Assembly (NCBI GenBank): GCA_021794075.1
Contig: JAJYRM010000016.1
Location: forward strand, 1 to 50,888
Length of the DNA: 50,888 bases
From: Bacteroidota bacterium
GTDB taxonomy: Bacteria; Bacteroidota; Ignavibacteria; Kryptoniales; JAKASW01
Direction: 5' to 3'
The notes beneath the pieces are model-generated. The model saw nothing but the letters and a program-made list of their open reading frames with translations, was not told the origin of the DNA and made no database searches. Made by a program: the position numbers and the translations under genes. Positions 1 through 7,058 of the stretch are shown here, one piece after another. Position 1 is the stretch's first letter. Each line of letters opens with the position of its first letter.

Positions 1-1
1 T

Positions 2-118
2 GATATTCGTCGCAAGGCGAAGGAGGGTGGATTGCATACTCTCCGTGAGGCTGCACTGAAGAAAGCCGCCCGCGGCGAAACCTCGCTCGAAGAGGTCCTC
101 CGTGAGACTGCGGTGTGA
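2..118 (+). CDS. pilB: Type IV pilus / type II secretion ATPase PilB/GspE, C-terminal end only
   Basis: Only the last 38 codons are present; the gene starts left of the window. The reading frame from base 2 gives GGLHTLREAALKKAARGETS followed by LEEVLRETAV and a TGA stop. The pattern TLR-x-A-x3-A-x-G-x-TS-x-EEVLR is the characteristic tail of the GspE/PulE/PilB family of hexameric ATPases, which power pilus extension or pseudopilus assembly at the inner membrane. The secretin 520 bases downstream and the PilM/N/O/P genes further on support this. PilB and GspE cannot be told apart from the tail alone; the PilMNOP neighbours favour the pilus version. Confidence 0.8.
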   Translation, partial: DIRRKAKEGGLHTLREAALKKAARGETSLEEVLRETAV

Positions 119-344
119 ATGCTTCAGGTTTGAACTTAACCGGACCTGCGTGCCGAAACAGTTTGTTGAATTGTGGAGCCTCTTTTCTCGAACTGCGGTG
201 TGCAGGCACGAGAGTGACAGAGTCACAGAGAAAGAGGTACCATCACTTCAGCGGGGCCCAACAATAGTAGCGCAGAAAGTTCCAACCTCCTTTACGAAGT
301 ACTCAAAGAATCCATAGATAGACAGCTATGTATGAAGTCCCTTC

Positions 345-497
345 GCGAAAATGGCGTCCCGTCCCCGTTTCGACAAAGATCGGTGACTCCTGAAGAGGCG
401 ATTTCAGGAGTTTCCTCCGGTACATATCAACCGCCGTATATTGAAATCGCCTCTCTTTACCGGGGACGGGACATCACGAAGGCCTCCCCATTTTCGC
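345..497. repeat. Long imperfect palindrome with alternative hairpins
   Basis: Four perfect stems can be read. Bases 356-367 pair with 461-472 (12 bp, gtcccgtccccg). The stem continues outwards, after a ~15-base bulge, as 345-354 with 488-497 (10 bp, gcgaaaatgg). Inside, 395-406 pairs with 442-453 (12 bp, gaggcgatttca), and this excludes a local hairpin of 386-394 with 403-411 (9 bp, actcctgaa). Mutually exclusive stems suggest a structured leader RNA or attenuator ahead of the secretin; a small non-autonomous mobile repeat with long terminal inverted repeats is the alternative. Confidence 0.6.
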
Positions 498-516
498 CGG
501 GCGCCCTTTTCTTTTG

Positions 517-553
517 GTTCATTTTCTTTTTGGGCGAGCAAAAGAAAATGAAC
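517..553. repeat. Perfect 14-bp hairpin (possible terminator or dispersed repeat)
   Basis: Bases 517-530 (gttcattttctttt) are perfectly complementary to 540-553, with a 9-base loop. The arms are nearly all A/T after the first four bases, so read on either strand the hairpin has a T-rich arm. It could end transcription from upstream, or be a dispersed intergenic hairpin. It lies 85 bases before the secretin start. Confidence 0.5.
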
Positions 554-638
554 ATCCATCATCAAATATCCGTACTCGGGTATTCTCCATTGGTAGTGAC
601 TCTGCACCGTGAGGGTGTCTCCTAAGAGAAGGATCGAA

Positions 639-2822
639 ATGATGCGCAAAATATTGTATCTGCCAACGCTGTTGACTTTACTATCCGCAACGGTGCTTCT
701 CGCGCAGGTGAGGCCCTCGCGCGACTCTGTTCGTAAGTCAATTATCCCTACCGATTCCCTGAGCCATGTTTCAACGCCTGCCCCGATCGTAAATCCGCCG
801 CATCCTTCCGGATTCGGGGGTGGAAATTCCTTTCGGCCTGATTCGTCTCGCCAAACCGACTCCGTCCACACCGTACCACCTCATTCCATCCCGCAACATG
901 ACGACAGCCTCAATTTGTCTTCTGCCGGTGAATCCGGAAATGATTCCTCACTCTATGTTCAGCCGACAGGTGCAGAAAAGAGTCTGCCCGCCAATCTCCC
1001 TCCCGGTGCCCTCGACACCACCACCATCAGCTTCAAGAACGCCGACATACGTGATGTTTTCAGAGGACTTGCCTACCAGCACGGCCTCAACATATTCGTC
1101 CAAAACTCAATCGACAAACATGTCACAATTTCGCTGAACGAAGTTCCCGTTTACTATGCTATCCAATTCCTTTGCAAGCAGAACGACCTCGACTTAACGC
1201 TCAAAGGAGGGATTTTCGAAATCACCGTTCCGCCACCTCCTGAGATTGTTCCTCCTCCGAAACCGAAACCTTATGTTGCATACGACGATGGAGACCTATG
1301 GATTGCAGCTGACAACGTCAGCCTCAGGTCCGTTGTCCAGGCGATCAGGGACAAGTCGCACAAAAACATTCTCATCACGGAAGGAACATCCGGTCCCGTT
1401 ACCGGACAGCTGAACGACATAAATTTCGATATCGGCTTCACTCAGCTCATGAACAACAACGGCTTTGCCGTCGAGAAGCGCGACGGGATTTATATAGTAA
1501 GTCGCCTCCAATATTATGTCGGAGGGAAGGAGAAAAACGGCCCTCCTCTCGCTTCCGGCCCCTACTGGATCAGCGCAAAAGACTCTCTTGTGACGATCGA
1601 TGTGACCAATGCGCCCATACAGCGAGTCATTTCCGACCTGGTACATCAAACCAACTCAGACGCAATTTTCTACAATGATGTGCCCGGCGACATAACCGCG
1701 AGGGTGTCCAACGTGTCACTCACCGATGCGCTCAATCTCCTTCTGATGAATACTACGGATACTTACAGAATCTCAGGCGGCAAATACTTCATCGGGAATA
1801 GGACGGATAAGACAATGACCTCGATGAAAATGGTCAGGCTGAAATATATGCGTCCCAAGGACCTCATCAAGATGATTCCGAAATACATTACCTCCGAAGC
1901 AACAATCAGGCCCGTGCCCGAGGAGAACGCGGTGGTCATAATGGCAACTAACGACGTCATATCGCAGTTCGTGCATTTAGTCAGGGATGTCGACAAACCA
2001 GTGCCGCAGGTGCTGATTGAGGCACTCGTCGTCGACTATAACCTGACGAAGAGCAGTCAGCTCGGAATAAACGCCGGGATACAAAACGCCCCTGACACCT
2101 CAGTTCAAAACTATACGGTAATACCTGGTATCAACTACACGACTACCGGACTCCGCATCAATGCCGACTTAAAACAGATAGGCACCATAAATGTCTTCGG
2201 CACAAGTCTCGGAGTCGCAAATTTAGGAGTGCTTCCTGCGAACTTTTACCTCAATTTGCAGGCACTTGAGCAGAAGGGGATAGCGGACGTCCGTTCGCGT
2301 CCCCTTCTGGCGACCCTGAACGGACACGAAGCAACTCTCAGTATAGGTACAACACAATACTACGAACTTTCTACAACGATTCCGTACAACGGGCAAAACA
2401 ACACAACGGTCTTCCAACAGAGCCAGACCTTCCAGAAGATTGAGGCCGATGTCAAGCTCGAGATAACTCCCTACGTCGGTGCCAACGGGATGATTTTCGT
2501 GGATATCAAACCGGATTTCGAAAGCCCTGTCGGACAGCTGTCGCCCAACGTCCCTCCGACTATCGAGCACCGATCATTAAGCTCAACACTCGAAATGAAA
2601 AACGGGGAAACCATAGTCTTGGGTGGGATGATCCAGAATACGACTTCTGTCAACAAGACGGCAACGCCCATACTTGGAGACATACCGATACTCGGTGCGC
2701 TCTTCTCGTCAACAACGAAGTCAAACGATAAGTCTGAACTAATCATATACATTACGCCTCACATATCCTACGGATCTGAATTCCGGAATGCCTCCATTCC
2801 TTCTCCAAATCAGGATCAATAA
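639..2822 (+). CDS. pilQ: PilQ/GspD-type secretin
   Basis: A 727-residue outer-membrane secretin, the ring pore through which the pilus or pseudopilus passes. The ATG at 639 is preferred over the upstream in-frame GTG because AAGAGAAGGA lies 6 bases before it and a signal peptide (KILYLPTLLTLLSATVLLAQ) follows at once. Layout: signal peptide to ~25; a Ser/Pro-rich linker to ~125; three STN/N0-like repeats at ~127-200, 215-287 and 312-387; a NolW-like N domain at ~393-458 (ending VRDVDKPVPQVLIEALVVDYN-like); the secretin core to ~710 with RSRPLLATLNGHEA, NGETIVLGGMI and the family signature ILGDIPILGALF. Three STN-like copies is more than the usual one. PilQ is favoured over GspD because PilM/N/O/P follow, although the operon is interrupted by the genes at 2847-9195. 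Confidence 0.9.
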   Translation: MMRKILYLPTLLTLLSATVLLAQVRPSRDSVRKSIIPTDSLSHVSTPAPIVNPPHPSGFGGGNSFRPDSSRQTDSVHTVPPHSIPQHDDSLNLSSAGESGNDSSLYVQPTGAEKSLPANLPPGALDTTTISFKNADIRDVFRGLAYQHGLNIFVQNSIDKHVTISLNEVPVYYAIQFLCKQNDLDLTLKGGIFEITVPPPPEIVPPPKPKPYVAYDDGDLWIAADNVSLRSVVQAIRDKSHKNILITEGTSGPVTGQLNDINFDIGFTQLMNNNGFAVEKRDGIYIVSRLQYYVGGKEKNGPPLASGPYWISAKDSLVTIDVTNAPIQRVISDLVHQTNSDAIFYNDVPGDITARVSNVSLTDALNLLLMNTTDTYRISGGKYFIGNRTDKTMTSMKMVRLKYMRPKDLIKMIPKYITSEATIRPVPEENAVVIMATNDVISQFVHLVRDVDKPVPQVLIEALVVDYNLTKSSQLGINAGIQNAPDTSVQNYTVIPGINYTTTGLRINADLKQIGTINVFGTSLGVANLGVLPANFYLNLQALEQKGIADVRSRPLLATLNGHEATLSIGTTQYYELSTTIPYNGQNNTTVFQQSQTFQKIEADVKLEITPYVGANGMIFVDIKPDFESPVGQLSPNVPPTIEHRSLSSTLEMKNGETIVLGGMIQNTTSVNKTATPILGDIPILGALFSSTTKSNDKSELIIYITPHISYGSEFRNASIPSPNQDQ

Positions 2823-4190: not shown

Positions 4191-5027
4191 ATGAAACGGT
4201 TTCTGTTTCTTCTTGCCGCAATAGCCACGGTGGTGGCTCTCGCTCCGAAGGCGAGTTATGCGCACAGGTATTTTGATGCTTGGGCCGCGAGGTGGACAAC
4301 ACCAGATCCGGCGTTAAATGAGAACCCGCAGGTTCTCATGAAGAAATACGGATATACGTTGTTTGAGACCTCGCCGTACATGTACACTCACGATAATCCG
4401 TTGAGGTATGCGGACCCGAACGGGAAGCGGGGTTTCGACATGATAGGAGGGCCAATGCTACCGCCGACCTCTTGGGCGCAGCTTAAACGGAACGTGATCA
4501 TGGCAGCAGCGGAGACCGGTGGTGCTGCGTTACTGTATTATGCTCCACAGGCTGCTCTCACCATCGCATCATGGTGGGCGGAAAATCCGGCGGCCGCAAA
4601 TGAAACTGCGAACACTGTCATTGATGCTCTGGCGCCTGCACCTGGTGGAGTCACTGGAGCTTTGCCGGAAGGACTTAACCTACCGGAGGGAAGGTCCCTT
4701 GGTGATATTTCCAGTATGATCATAGGGCCGATGCATGCTGTCGAGGGCCTTGTCAGCGAAGGTTACACGACTTCTGCCGAATCTAAGGGCGCCGCCTACT
4801 TCTTCCTATCCAACTACGATGAATTATCTCAAGCAGCGAGGGACAAACTCAATTTTGGGGCGCTTGATTATGCTATGAAGAACGGATGGGACATAGATTT
4901 AACGATTTCAAAAGGACAAGTGAGAGAAGGGACGCAACTTTACAAAGAAGTTCAATATATGGAGAAGAACGCGACGGATTACGGCTATCGATGGAATCAA
5001 AGTGGTACAGCTTTTACGAGACAATAG
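4191..5027 (+). CDS. Mini-RHS polymorphic toxin, cassette 1
   Basis: 278 residues; ATG preceded by AAAGGGCG. A Sec signal peptide (residues 1-24, ending SYA) is fused directly to the end of an RHS repeat-associated core: HRYFDAWAARWTTPDPALN, then YMYTHDNPLRYADPNGK. This corresponds to RYYDPxxGRWxxxDPL...YxYxxNNPLxYxDPxG of RHS proteins, with no YD repeats or cage before it. DPNGK is where RHS cores autocleave. Residues ~90-150 are Ala-rich and hydrophobic, and like in kind to those of cassettes 2 and 3. The ~90-residue tip ending GYRWNQSGTAFTRQ is unique here and I do not recognise it; by family logic it is the toxin. The likely immunity gene starts 13 bases later. The leader DNA is almost identical to the copies at 6183 and 8009. 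Confidence 0.75.
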   Translation: MKRFLFLLAAIATVVALAPKASYAHRYFDAWAARWTTPDPALNENPQVLMKKYGYTLFETSPYMYTHDNPLRYADPNGKRGFDMIGGPMLPPTSWAQLKRNVIMAAAETGGAALLYYAPQAALTIASWWAENPAAANETANTVIDALAPAPGGVTGALPEGLNLPEGRSLGDISSMIIGPMHAVEGLVSEGYTTSAESKGAAYFFLSNYDELSQAARDKLNFGALDYAMKNGWDIDLTISKGQVREGTQLYKEVQYMEKNATDYGYRWNQSGTAFTRQ

Positions 5028-6086: not shown

Positions 6087-6182
6087 GCTTTGGGTCGAGA
6101 GAGTGACCAACAGACAGTCTCTTTTTAGATTCTGCCTGTCTGAATGGCACTTTATTTAGAGAATATATTACCCCGATACTCC

Positions 6183-7058
6183 ATGAAACGGTCACTGTTT
6201 CTTCTTGCCGCAATAGCCACGGTGGTGGCTCTCGCTCCGAAGCCGGGTTATGCCCACAGATACTTTGATACGTGGGCTGTCGAAGATCCCGCGCTTCGCG
6301 GGACGAGATGGACGACGCCGGACCCGGCGCTGAATGAGAACCCGCAGGTGCTCATGAAGAAATACGAATACAGGTTGTTTGAGACCTCGCCGTACATGTA
6401 CACGCACGATAATCCGTTGAGGTATGCGGACCCGAACGGGAAGCGGGGCTTTGACATGATAGGTGGTCCAATTATCGTCTCGACATCGTGGAAGGAATTT
6501 GAATATAGGTTCATTGGAACCGCTGCTGAAGGGGCAGCAGTCGCAGCGCTTTACTTTGTCCCCGAGCTTACTACCAAAGCAGTGCAATGGATGCTTGCTA
6601 ATCCTGCGGCAACTGCAGCCATCTCTACTGCGGCAGCGGAATCATTGGCTCCTCCGGGGGCTTCCCTAAATCCTGCGGGGACCGCTGAGGAGTTGGGTAA
6701 TGGAATTCTCTCAGACGCGAAGTTCGCGCAAAGCACCTATAGTGAATTCTTCAGCAAAGAAGGAGCGTTTGCAGGAAAGAGTATAGATGATATCGCAGCC
6801 GCTCTTAAGAATGGGACGCTAAGTGCCGAAGACGTTCCCGTTGATTATATTCTCAAAGATGGGCATGTCCTTATTCTCAACACAAGATCAGCGCAAGCAT
6901 TGGAAAGAGCGGGGATTTCACGAGCAGACTGGAACGCTGTTGATCGAACGGGTGAAGCCGCGTATGAGCAACGCTTGATGGAGCAATTGAAAAAAAACAA
7001 CCTCACAACTGAGGGCACCAGCAATGTCACTTCAACAGGAAGGCAGAATGAGCGATAA
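6183..7058 (+). CDS. Mini-RHS polymorphic toxin, cassette 2
   Basis: 291 residues. The ATG at 6183 matches the start of the other two copies; an in-frame ATG at 6144 is possible but would put 13 extra residues before the signal peptide. Signal peptide ends GYA; the RHS-core remnant reads HRYFDTWAVEDPALRGTRWT then YTHDNPLRYADPNGKRG, with an eight-residue insertion relative to cassettes 1 and 3. A hydrophobic Ala-rich stretch leads to AAAESLAPPGAS, a linker shared with cassette 3. The tip contains SIDDIAAALKNGTLSAEDVP, HVLILNTRSAQALERAGI and RTGEAAYEQRLMEQLKKN. I believe this type of tip also ends longer RHS proteins elsewhere, but I cannot name its domain or activity. Its last 11 bases overlap the immunity gene. 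Confidence 0.75.
   Translation: MKRSLFLLAAIATVVALAPKPGYAHRYFDTWAVEDPALRGTRWTTPDPALNENPQVLMKKYEYRLFETSPYMYTHDNPLRYADPNGKRGFDMIGGPIIVSTSWKEFEYRFIGTAAEGAAVAALYFVPELTTKAVQWMLANPAATAAISTAAAESLAPPGASLNPAGTAEELGNGILSDAKFAQSTYSEFFSKEGAFAGKSIDDIAAALKNGTLSAEDVPVDYILKDGHVLILNTRSAQALERAGISRADWNAVDRTGEAAYEQRLMEQLKKNNLTTEGTSNVTSTGRQNER

Follow-up and report, generated by a model that had tools for sequence, protein, structure and literature searches.

The palindrome-rich spacer ahead of a secretin gene in the window, the whole 50,888-nucleotide stretch of Bacteroidota DNA that was analysed, probably holds one copy (339-554) of a non-coding, non-autonomous dispersed and mobile element with a 5′ domain, an H-type pseudoknot and a third-strand tract. 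Sequence comparisons establish the dispersal of the element, its helices, the covariation of its pseudoknot and of its mirror tract, and its spread over several phyla. The proposed fold is that of a single strand. A multi-helix 5′ domain would be closed by a stem, P1, and directly after P1 an H-type pseudoknot would form through base pairs between a linker and a hairpin loop (the hairpin has 14 bp in this copy). Between linker and loop, a pyrimidine tract of 8-10 nt would occupy the major groove of this hairpin as a third strand in parallel orientation, giving U/T.A-T and C+.G-C triples. The knotted 3′ end may be recognised by a trans-acting factor or may protect the 3′ end of the strand, and copies could be spread in trans by an enzyme that acts on the single strand.

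The main feature of the element is at its 3′ end, where a pseudoknot is joined by a mirror tract compatible with a triple helix. It had escaped an earlier note on this DNA, which listed perfect stems of 10, 12, 12, 9 and 14 bp and read them as an attenuator or structured secretin leader, or else as a small transposable repeat with long inverted ends. All five stems were found again where the note had placed them, one of the 12-bp stems (P3) being in fact 13 bp long (Table 1). A palindrome search of the window added a 10-bp stem (507-516/539-548) that overlaps the 3′ hairpin. Folding of positions 330-640, a check that the note had proposed, gave -113 kcal/mol vs -88.9 +/- 4.8 for shuffles (z -5.0; 0/100 as good), and the other strand is also more stable than its shuffles (z -4.2; 0/100 as good); the palindromes thus exceed chance.

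Table 1. Features of the element and its neighbours in the window (percentages are paired cells in the alignment of 32 family A copies).
Feature	Positions	Strand	Evidence
T2SSE/pilB-type ATPase gene, 3′ end, upstream neighbour	1-118	+	alignment to the terminal part of its orthologue in G009
Dispersed element, family A copy, ~215 nt	339-554	+	homology to other copies begins and stops at both limits
P1, closes 5′ domain	345-354/488-497, 10 bp	+	97.6%
P2	356-367/461-472, 12 bp	+	6 pairs with double-sided changes; 93.0%
Competing hairpin of the earlier note	386-394/403-411, 9 bp	+	private to the locus, not a family feature
P3	394-406/442-454, 13 bp	+	7 pairs with double-sided changes; 89.2%
Pseudoknot strand CGCCC, partner of 532-536	502-506	+	4/5 pairs with double-sided changes; 98.1%
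Putative third-strand tract TTTTCTTTT	507-515	+	parallel complement (mirror) of purine arm 540-548
3′ hairpin	517-530/540-553, 14 bp	+	98.1%
Pseudoknot loop strand GGGCG	532-536	+	pairs with linker 502-506
Secretin gene, neighbour, outside the element	609-2822	+	start GTG 609 by ORF caller

Profile matches name both neighbours, the upstream one through its orthologue: the open reading frame 642-2819 to Pfam Secretin (6.1e-42), and the protein of the ATPase orthologue in G009 (L037:1207-2724) to T2SSE (1.3e-140, Pfam). Elsewhere in the window, two open reading frames (4191-5027 and 6144-7058) have a common 5′ half (YFDxWAxRWTTPDPALNENPQVLMKKYxY...YMYTHDNPLRYADPNGKRGFDMIGGP), differing 3′ halves and small open reading frames behind them; we take them to resemble RHS-type polymorphic toxin cassettes from the motif.

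The 3′ module and the 5′ domain

In H-type pseudoknots, such as those of the telomerase type, the deep groove of stem 2 is occupied by the first loop, which runs parallel to the purine strand. Because of this topology the 3′ module would have the geometry of a pyrimidine triple helix, and a third strand is predicted to form there; C+.G-C triples need protonation. In the window the tract is the parallel complement of AAAAGAAAA in the purine arm at 9/9 positions. A genome collection of 84,980 species was scanned with a pattern in which linker and loop were fixed and the purine arm was left open beyond two A. It returned 94 stretches with 95 copies, among them several from one genome and some from the genus of the window; these are copies and not independent events. 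The tract matches the purine arm 8/8 in parallel in 89 of the 95; over 2000 reassignments of the tracts this number averaged 30.5 and never exceeded 45. Antiparallel matches number 9 in register and 35 with free shifts. For every tract variant, TTTTCTTT (38), TTTCTTTT (34), TTCTCTTT (8), TTTCCTTT (7) and TTTTTTTT (2), the arm opposite holds the complement of that variant. The linker and loop vary as well, and more than 10 different pseudoknot pairs were seen, among them CGCCC/GGGCG, CTTGAT/ATCAAG, CACCC/GGGTG, CGTCC/GGACG, CACGT/ACGTG, GGTCC/GGACC and GCGAT/ATCGC.

A descriptor scan of 135 sources (937,649 nt), which were chosen for holding such elements, gave 146 matches with the parallel tract and 54 when the tract was made antiparallel; a single block shuffle gave 0. 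With a 7-nt tract the antiparallel control was as good as the parallel descriptor (44 vs 43 matches), because the inner seven bases are mirror-symmetric; an 8-nt tract separates the two. A held-out set was taken from 53 loci found later with a covariance model, of which 21 were dropped (pattern-type, in the model, or duplicates) and 32 kept. Mean parallel length in this set is 8.06 vs a shuffled mean of 6.25 and maximum of 7.28 (0/1000), and pseudoknot length is 4.41 vs 3.26 and 3.72 (0/1000). The pseudoknot reaches at least 4 pairs in 26/32 and is not clear in 6/32. The parallel match is longer than the antiparallel one (mean 6.69) in 20 loci, equal in 10 and shorter in 2. The held-out set is separate from the counts above, yet it is not free of selection since the covariance model favours consensus letters.

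The helices of the 5′ domain were examined in 32 copies of family A, to which the window copy belongs. P1, P2 and P3 together with the pseudoknot and the hairpin comprise 54 pairs, with 94.2% of cells paired. Both sides have changed in 22 of these pairs, a number reached in 0/500 shuffles, and pairing falls to 43-54% when the partner is slid by 1-3 columns. The covariation among homologues for which the earlier note had called is thus present in five helices, which carry compensating changes, but not in the competing hairpin at 386-394/403-411. RNAalifold without a preset structure returned nothing beyond P2, the greater part of P3 and a stem of 2 bp, and its covariation term was small (-1.2).

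In family A the two strands of P1 make up an inverted repeat of 14 nt, 93% complementary, around the 5′ domain. By eye, the 3′ strand of P1 adjoins the pseudoknot strand in many lineages while its letters differ, as in Ilyobacter (CCCCTTTAAAAAATACC/GGTATTTTTTAGGGG), the Fulvivirga-type L078 (CCACGAATA/TATTCGTGG) and the Desulfobacterales L093 (CCCATCGTCCCGC/GCGGGACGCAGGG). When 78 distinct modules were tested systematically against mismatched controls, 17 exceeded the 95th percentile and 12 the 99th. Nine of the 17 are from the genus of the window, five are found elsewhere at plausible spans (L230, L098, L082, L167 and L105), and three (L121, L132 and L092) are doubtful and, at spans of 201-299, probably are not P1. 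No module of the Selenomonadaceae passes apart from the doubtful L121. Since 17 of 78 modules pass the control, the sequences support P1 in several lineages and do not establish it as universal.

In Galbibacter the core is 163 nt long in 18 of the 19 measured copies (20 were fetched, one without the anchor). The 5′ border is sharp, upstream conservation dropping to background in ~10 nt, but the 3′ border is less so because ~50 nt downstream of the hairpin are weakly conserved. The Galbibacter helices have 98.8% of cells paired vs 98.1% in shuffles, and five pairs, one of them in the pseudoknot, have changed on both sides (0/500 shuffles as high). Among Bacteroidota copies (Galbibacter L282-L301; L225, L228 and L233) GGAGCG/GAGCG motifs that look unpaired are common to 5′ domains whose helices differ.

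Dispersal and spread across bacteria

A search of the window's own genome with positions 340-560 found nine places. Three of them, the window copy and, both at contig ends, those on C230 and C50, hold the 5′ domain; the other six hold the 3′ hairpin part only. When 61 genomes were searched, all 13 of the genus gave a match and 1 of the 48 others did. Copies that match from position 1 to at least 215 span ~210-235 nt. Those in other genomes are 66-77% identical to the window copy, the copy on C230 is 81% identical, and the orthologue in G009 is 97% identical over the first 171 nt. The earlier note had named many copies at unrelated loci as the result that would speak for a repeat element and against a secretin leader, and this is what the genome searches gave.

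Comparison of orthologous sites points in the same direction. In the near relative G009 this site is occupied by the same copy, with 95% similarity upstream and a further repeat inserted in the linker, and the element is absent from the pilB-secretin spacer of G010 and G012, whose secretins are 76% identical. A copy at G009:C30 occupies a site at which G000:C98 has 40 nt, and the L060 copy is missing from L066. The insertion junctions are inexact because the compared spacers are only ~68-78% alike. The secretin copy is best explained as having inserted between the pilB-type gene and the secretin gene, on which it would have a secondary effect at most. Orientation was listed for 28 family A copies, three of which lack a neighbour; of the 25 scored, 13 are sense to both neighbours, 6 antisense to both and 6 mixed. 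Thirteen of the 28 copies lie mostly within an open frame of at least 130 aa, and these frames are taken as spurious.

Several arrangements of repeats were observed alongside. A second repeat (TCCCGCTCCGACATT...GCGGGATCCCGC...GACTTTT type) lies inside the linker tract or the hairpin of L037 (3119-3187), L057, L058, L062, L063, L065 and L071. Its insertion place is similar across these family A copies, the orthologous window copy being without it, and it may target pyrimidine tracts. Family A modules also stand tail to tail with modules of family B (pseudoknot CTTGAT/ATCAAG) in composite pairs and small arrays (L045 3004-3500; L039 2862-3389; L074 1-1350, G000:C81). In G012:C24 (L252 5577-6026) there are three tandem 150-nt units close to truncated family A 5′ ends, and the first ~30 nt of the element occur there twice, 5 kb apart. 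An autonomous version of the element at G012:C24 was considered and rejected, as these two copies look like truncated pieces within other repeats.

Beyond the genus, the module is carried by Bacteroidota, beta- and gamma-proteobacteria, 'Deltaproteobacteria', Bacillota and Fusobacteriota. Named records include Dyadobacter, Fulvivirga, Galbibacter and Robiginitalea among the Bacteroidota, Kryptoniota, Dokdonella, Kangiella and Thioalkalivibrio among the beta- and gamma-proteobacteria, 'Deltaproteobacteria', Selenomonadaceae and Oscillospiraceae, and the megaplasmid of Ilyobacter polytropus in the Fusobacteriota (six places, two of them read). Many carriers are MAGs, and three phyla are represented by isolates, namely Dyadobacter, Fulvivirga, Galbibacter, Kangiella and Ilyobacter. 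In a sample of the window's own phylum at least 21/395 genomes and at least 14/170 genera carry the module, a lower bound given the E threshold of 1e-5, strict filters and 15 candidates scored per genome. Copy numbers in 24 genomes chosen as carriers range from 1 to 98, with 98, 77 and 32 in Selenomonadaceae, 28 in Kangiella, 26 in Galbibacter, 17 in HyVt-560 and 14 in the window's own genome. On plasmids no record was found for the Galbibacter element and one for the proteobacterial element. A phage or viral origin was rejected, as two queries of a phage collection and one exact pattern run on viral contigs returned no match.

The selected strand, mobility and the secretin gene

Is the selected strand RNA or single-stranded DNA? 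If the strand acts as RNA, G-U pairs are expected to exceed A-C mismatches. The counts are neutral in the core pairs of family A (GU 13 vs AC 15), 12 vs 2 in Galbibacter with one fixed G-U pair left out, 54 vs 25 in the hairpins of the 95 modules, and 33 vs 17 in four other groups ('Deltaproteobacteria' alone 7 vs 8), this last count being biased because the structure was chosen by an RNA program. A fixed G.U adjoins the tract in 20/20 Galbibacter copies. Taken together the sequences lean slightly towards RNA rather than single-stranded DNA.

It has to be considered whether the copies are structured RNAs (end-protecting, sRNA-like or mRNA-stabilising) that were spread by recombination or passive transfer and kept for their function as RNA and not for selfish mobility. 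The excess of G-U in Galbibacter and in the four other groups, the fixed G.U beside the tract in all 20 Galbibacter copies and the 13 of 25 scored family A copies that are co-directional with both neighbours favour this reading. It is a possible but rather doubtful account, however, as orientation is not fixed (6/25 antisense to both neighbours and 6 mixed; two Ilyobacter copies also antisense to both), the wobble count of family A is neutral, and the distribution within the phylum is patchy at the lower bound given above.

The enzyme that might move the elements was sought among known families. Mobilisation as REP-type elements by a Y1 transposase (RAYT/TnpA-REP) acting on hairpins of single-stranded DNA would suit units that are short, dispersed, hairpin-bearing and found as unlike units in tail-to-tail pairs. 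Y1_Tnp is present in 12 of 13 genomes of the genus, and ssDNA transposition is expected to leave no clear target duplication. A duplication adjoining the element was sought in 19 family A copies and 19 Galbibacter copies without success (183/300 and 78/300 shuffles as high). Against this, Y1_Tnp gave no match in the window's own genome or in 10 of 18 carrier genomes, neither Y1_Tnp nor RVT_1 matched in the four genomes of highest copy number (Selenomonadaceae at 98, 77 and 32 copies, Kangiella at 28), and 59 Y1-transposase loci (30 + 29; ~1.5 kb on each side) contain 0 modules. The tags of REPs occur near the hairpin as letters, paired and unpaired alike, in 23/95 (GTAG) and 17/95 (CGTC) modules, but GTAG, where present, is by eye mostly within the stem. 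This explanation is unlikely; its odds overlap with those of the preferred reading, which names no mobiliser. As a separate observation, the first letters of Cytophagales-type copies (L105, L112 and L225), right at P1, are ACGTCC and recall the CGTC tag known from REPs.

RVT_1 was found in 8 of 18 carrier genomes. A retro-element that depends on it was rejected, as the other 10 carriers, highest-copy genomes included, have no match (G000, Galbibacter, Kangiella and the three Selenomonadaceae are among those without). Stop-to-stop frames lying up to 2.5 kb from a module (1483 in all, at loci chosen for holding modules) were clustered, and no gene family was prominent among the top 25 clusters. 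Most clusters belong to a single lineage or are the repeats themselves. A cluster of 14 loci (HyVt-560 and two Selenomonadaceae) and one of six loci from several lineages (L092, L093, L120, L128, L144 and L154) appear by eye to be general families.

A classical DDE-type MITE, in which P1 would provide the inverted ends and a related IS would move the element with duplication of the target site, is an improbable alternative. The inverted repeat formed by the P1 strands of family A would fit it, and a direct-repeat search 70 nt wide gave a slight excess in Galbibacter (15/300 shuffles as high). The same search gave 44/300 in family A, the adjoining duplication is absent as described above, and the element extends beyond P1 through the 3′ module: P1 stops before this module, and the outermost ends of family A are by eye not complementary. 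The earlier note's small transposable repeat is therefore retained in outline, as a dispersed repeat, but its long inverted ends, if taken as classical ones, are not, since there is no clear target duplication.

Could the palindromes be kept perfect without selection on the fold? Template switching during replication would do so and may account for single 5′ helices. It would explain the compensating changes in P1-P3 and the hairpin as well as the balance of GU and AC in family A. As an explanation of the element it is very improbable, as a mirror repeat, which is parallel and not antiparallel, would not be expected from such a process and the mirror covaries strongly. For this reason the mirror covariation is unusually clean evidence for selection on a single-strand triple helix.

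The earlier note had also suggested that stems ahead of the secretin gene are mutually exclusive, as in an attenuator. The geometric part of this suggestion stands, as bases of the 9-bp hairpin and of the 13-bp P3 overlap. A conserved switch does not, because all nine pairs are intact in only 2/32 copies, the window and its orthologue L037, and the hairpin shows no covariation in family A (71.2% paired vs 70.3% in shuffles; shuffles as high in 94/500 by pairing and 213/500 by score). Although the element directly precedes the secretin gene, in its spacer and on the same strand, an attenuator or riboswitch in a secretin leader is a highly improbable reading. As a general role it is refuted by the copies at unrelated loci, the two orthologous spacers without the element, the unconserved competing stem, the lack of a terminator-like site at 119-760 and the lack of an Rfam match; the copy beside the secretin may still have an effect peculiar to its site. 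Rfam gave nothing at the gathering score, whether on the window, on 18 loci or on 2 kb of Ilyobacter sequence, and the best matches of two 401-nt stretches at E up to 5 were far under the curated scores.

Comparison with known systems and significance

The preferred reading, a dispersed element with a 5′ domain and a pseudoknotted 3′ module, has to be set beside systems that are already known. MITEs and ERIC-type palindromic elements are non-coding, 100-300 nt long, imperfectly palindromic and found at many loci, and the module resembles them in this. It differs in having no clear target duplication and a knotted 3′ hairpin outside the inverted ends. Known pseudoknots in which a groove-crossing loop forms a third strand parallel to the purine strand have the same topology as the module, but here there are 8-10 consecutive predicted triples in dispersed bacterial repeats without a known ligand or enzyme.

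Intrastrand triplex repeats are known in general. According to the available part of the ITxF survey (Holder et al. 2015, PMC4666352), intrastrand triplex motifs are abundant in bacteria, class IV is the pyrimidine motif, and pyrimidine-type intrastrand triplexes form in RNA too. Class IV, as it is defined there, has the order of parts in one strand that the module has, namely third strand (5′), pyrimidine arm and purine arm, with at least six matching triplets; the window has 9/9 and 89 of the 95 copies have 8/8. The loops of the module (~6-9 nt) can exceed the limit of 1-6 nt given for the ITxF program, and the focus of the survey, as far as that part of it goes, is the G/C-rich purine motif TMECO (BoxC/PIT), which is unlike the module (PMC4666352). 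The word pseudoknot is absent from its main text, and its available part describes no loop-linker pairing, P1 domain or element of fixed length (PMC4666352). Two related observations concern BoxC. The descriptor used here also found a G/C-rich triplex hairpin of the BoxC/TMECO type in a proteobacterial MAG (L119 160-201), and on its opposite strand BoxC has its parts arranged as in the module but lacks a clear pseudoknot.

The REP/REPIN/BIME and TIR repeats of tyrosine transposases are, in the available part of their description, likewise short, dispersed, extragenic, hairpin-bearing and often arranged in inverted pairs (PMC3733652). In comparison with REP/REPIN/BIME as described there, the module has no established unpaired GTAG or CGTC tag and no Y1 nearby, is a longer unit of several helices, and possesses a pseudoknot and a mirror tract (PMC3733652). 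A search of the open full-text literature, which is mostly without subscription papers, found no published description of the element class, its pseudoknot or its P1 domain.

We tentatively put forward a bolder reading, which is more likely to fail than to hold. The elements may belong to a previously unnamed class of mobile structured RNAs, present in at least five bacterial groups, in which a pseudoknotted pyrimidine triple helix of 8-10 triples would stabilise or mark the 3′ end and which would be spread through that strand by an undiscovered enzyme. Such a class would be a bacterial counterpart of the telomerase and MALAT1 triple helices.

Repeats of unrelated bacteria, at up to 98 copies per genome, are thereby no longer loose hairpins but a single class that has a defined fold and can be tested, and Galbibacter mesophilus, Kangiella taiwanensis and Ilyobacter polytropus are cultured organisms in which it could be tested. 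If the strand is RNA, the modules would to our knowledge be among the longest natural triple-helix pseudoknots; if it is single-stranded DNA, they would point to an undiscovered single-strand mobiliser.
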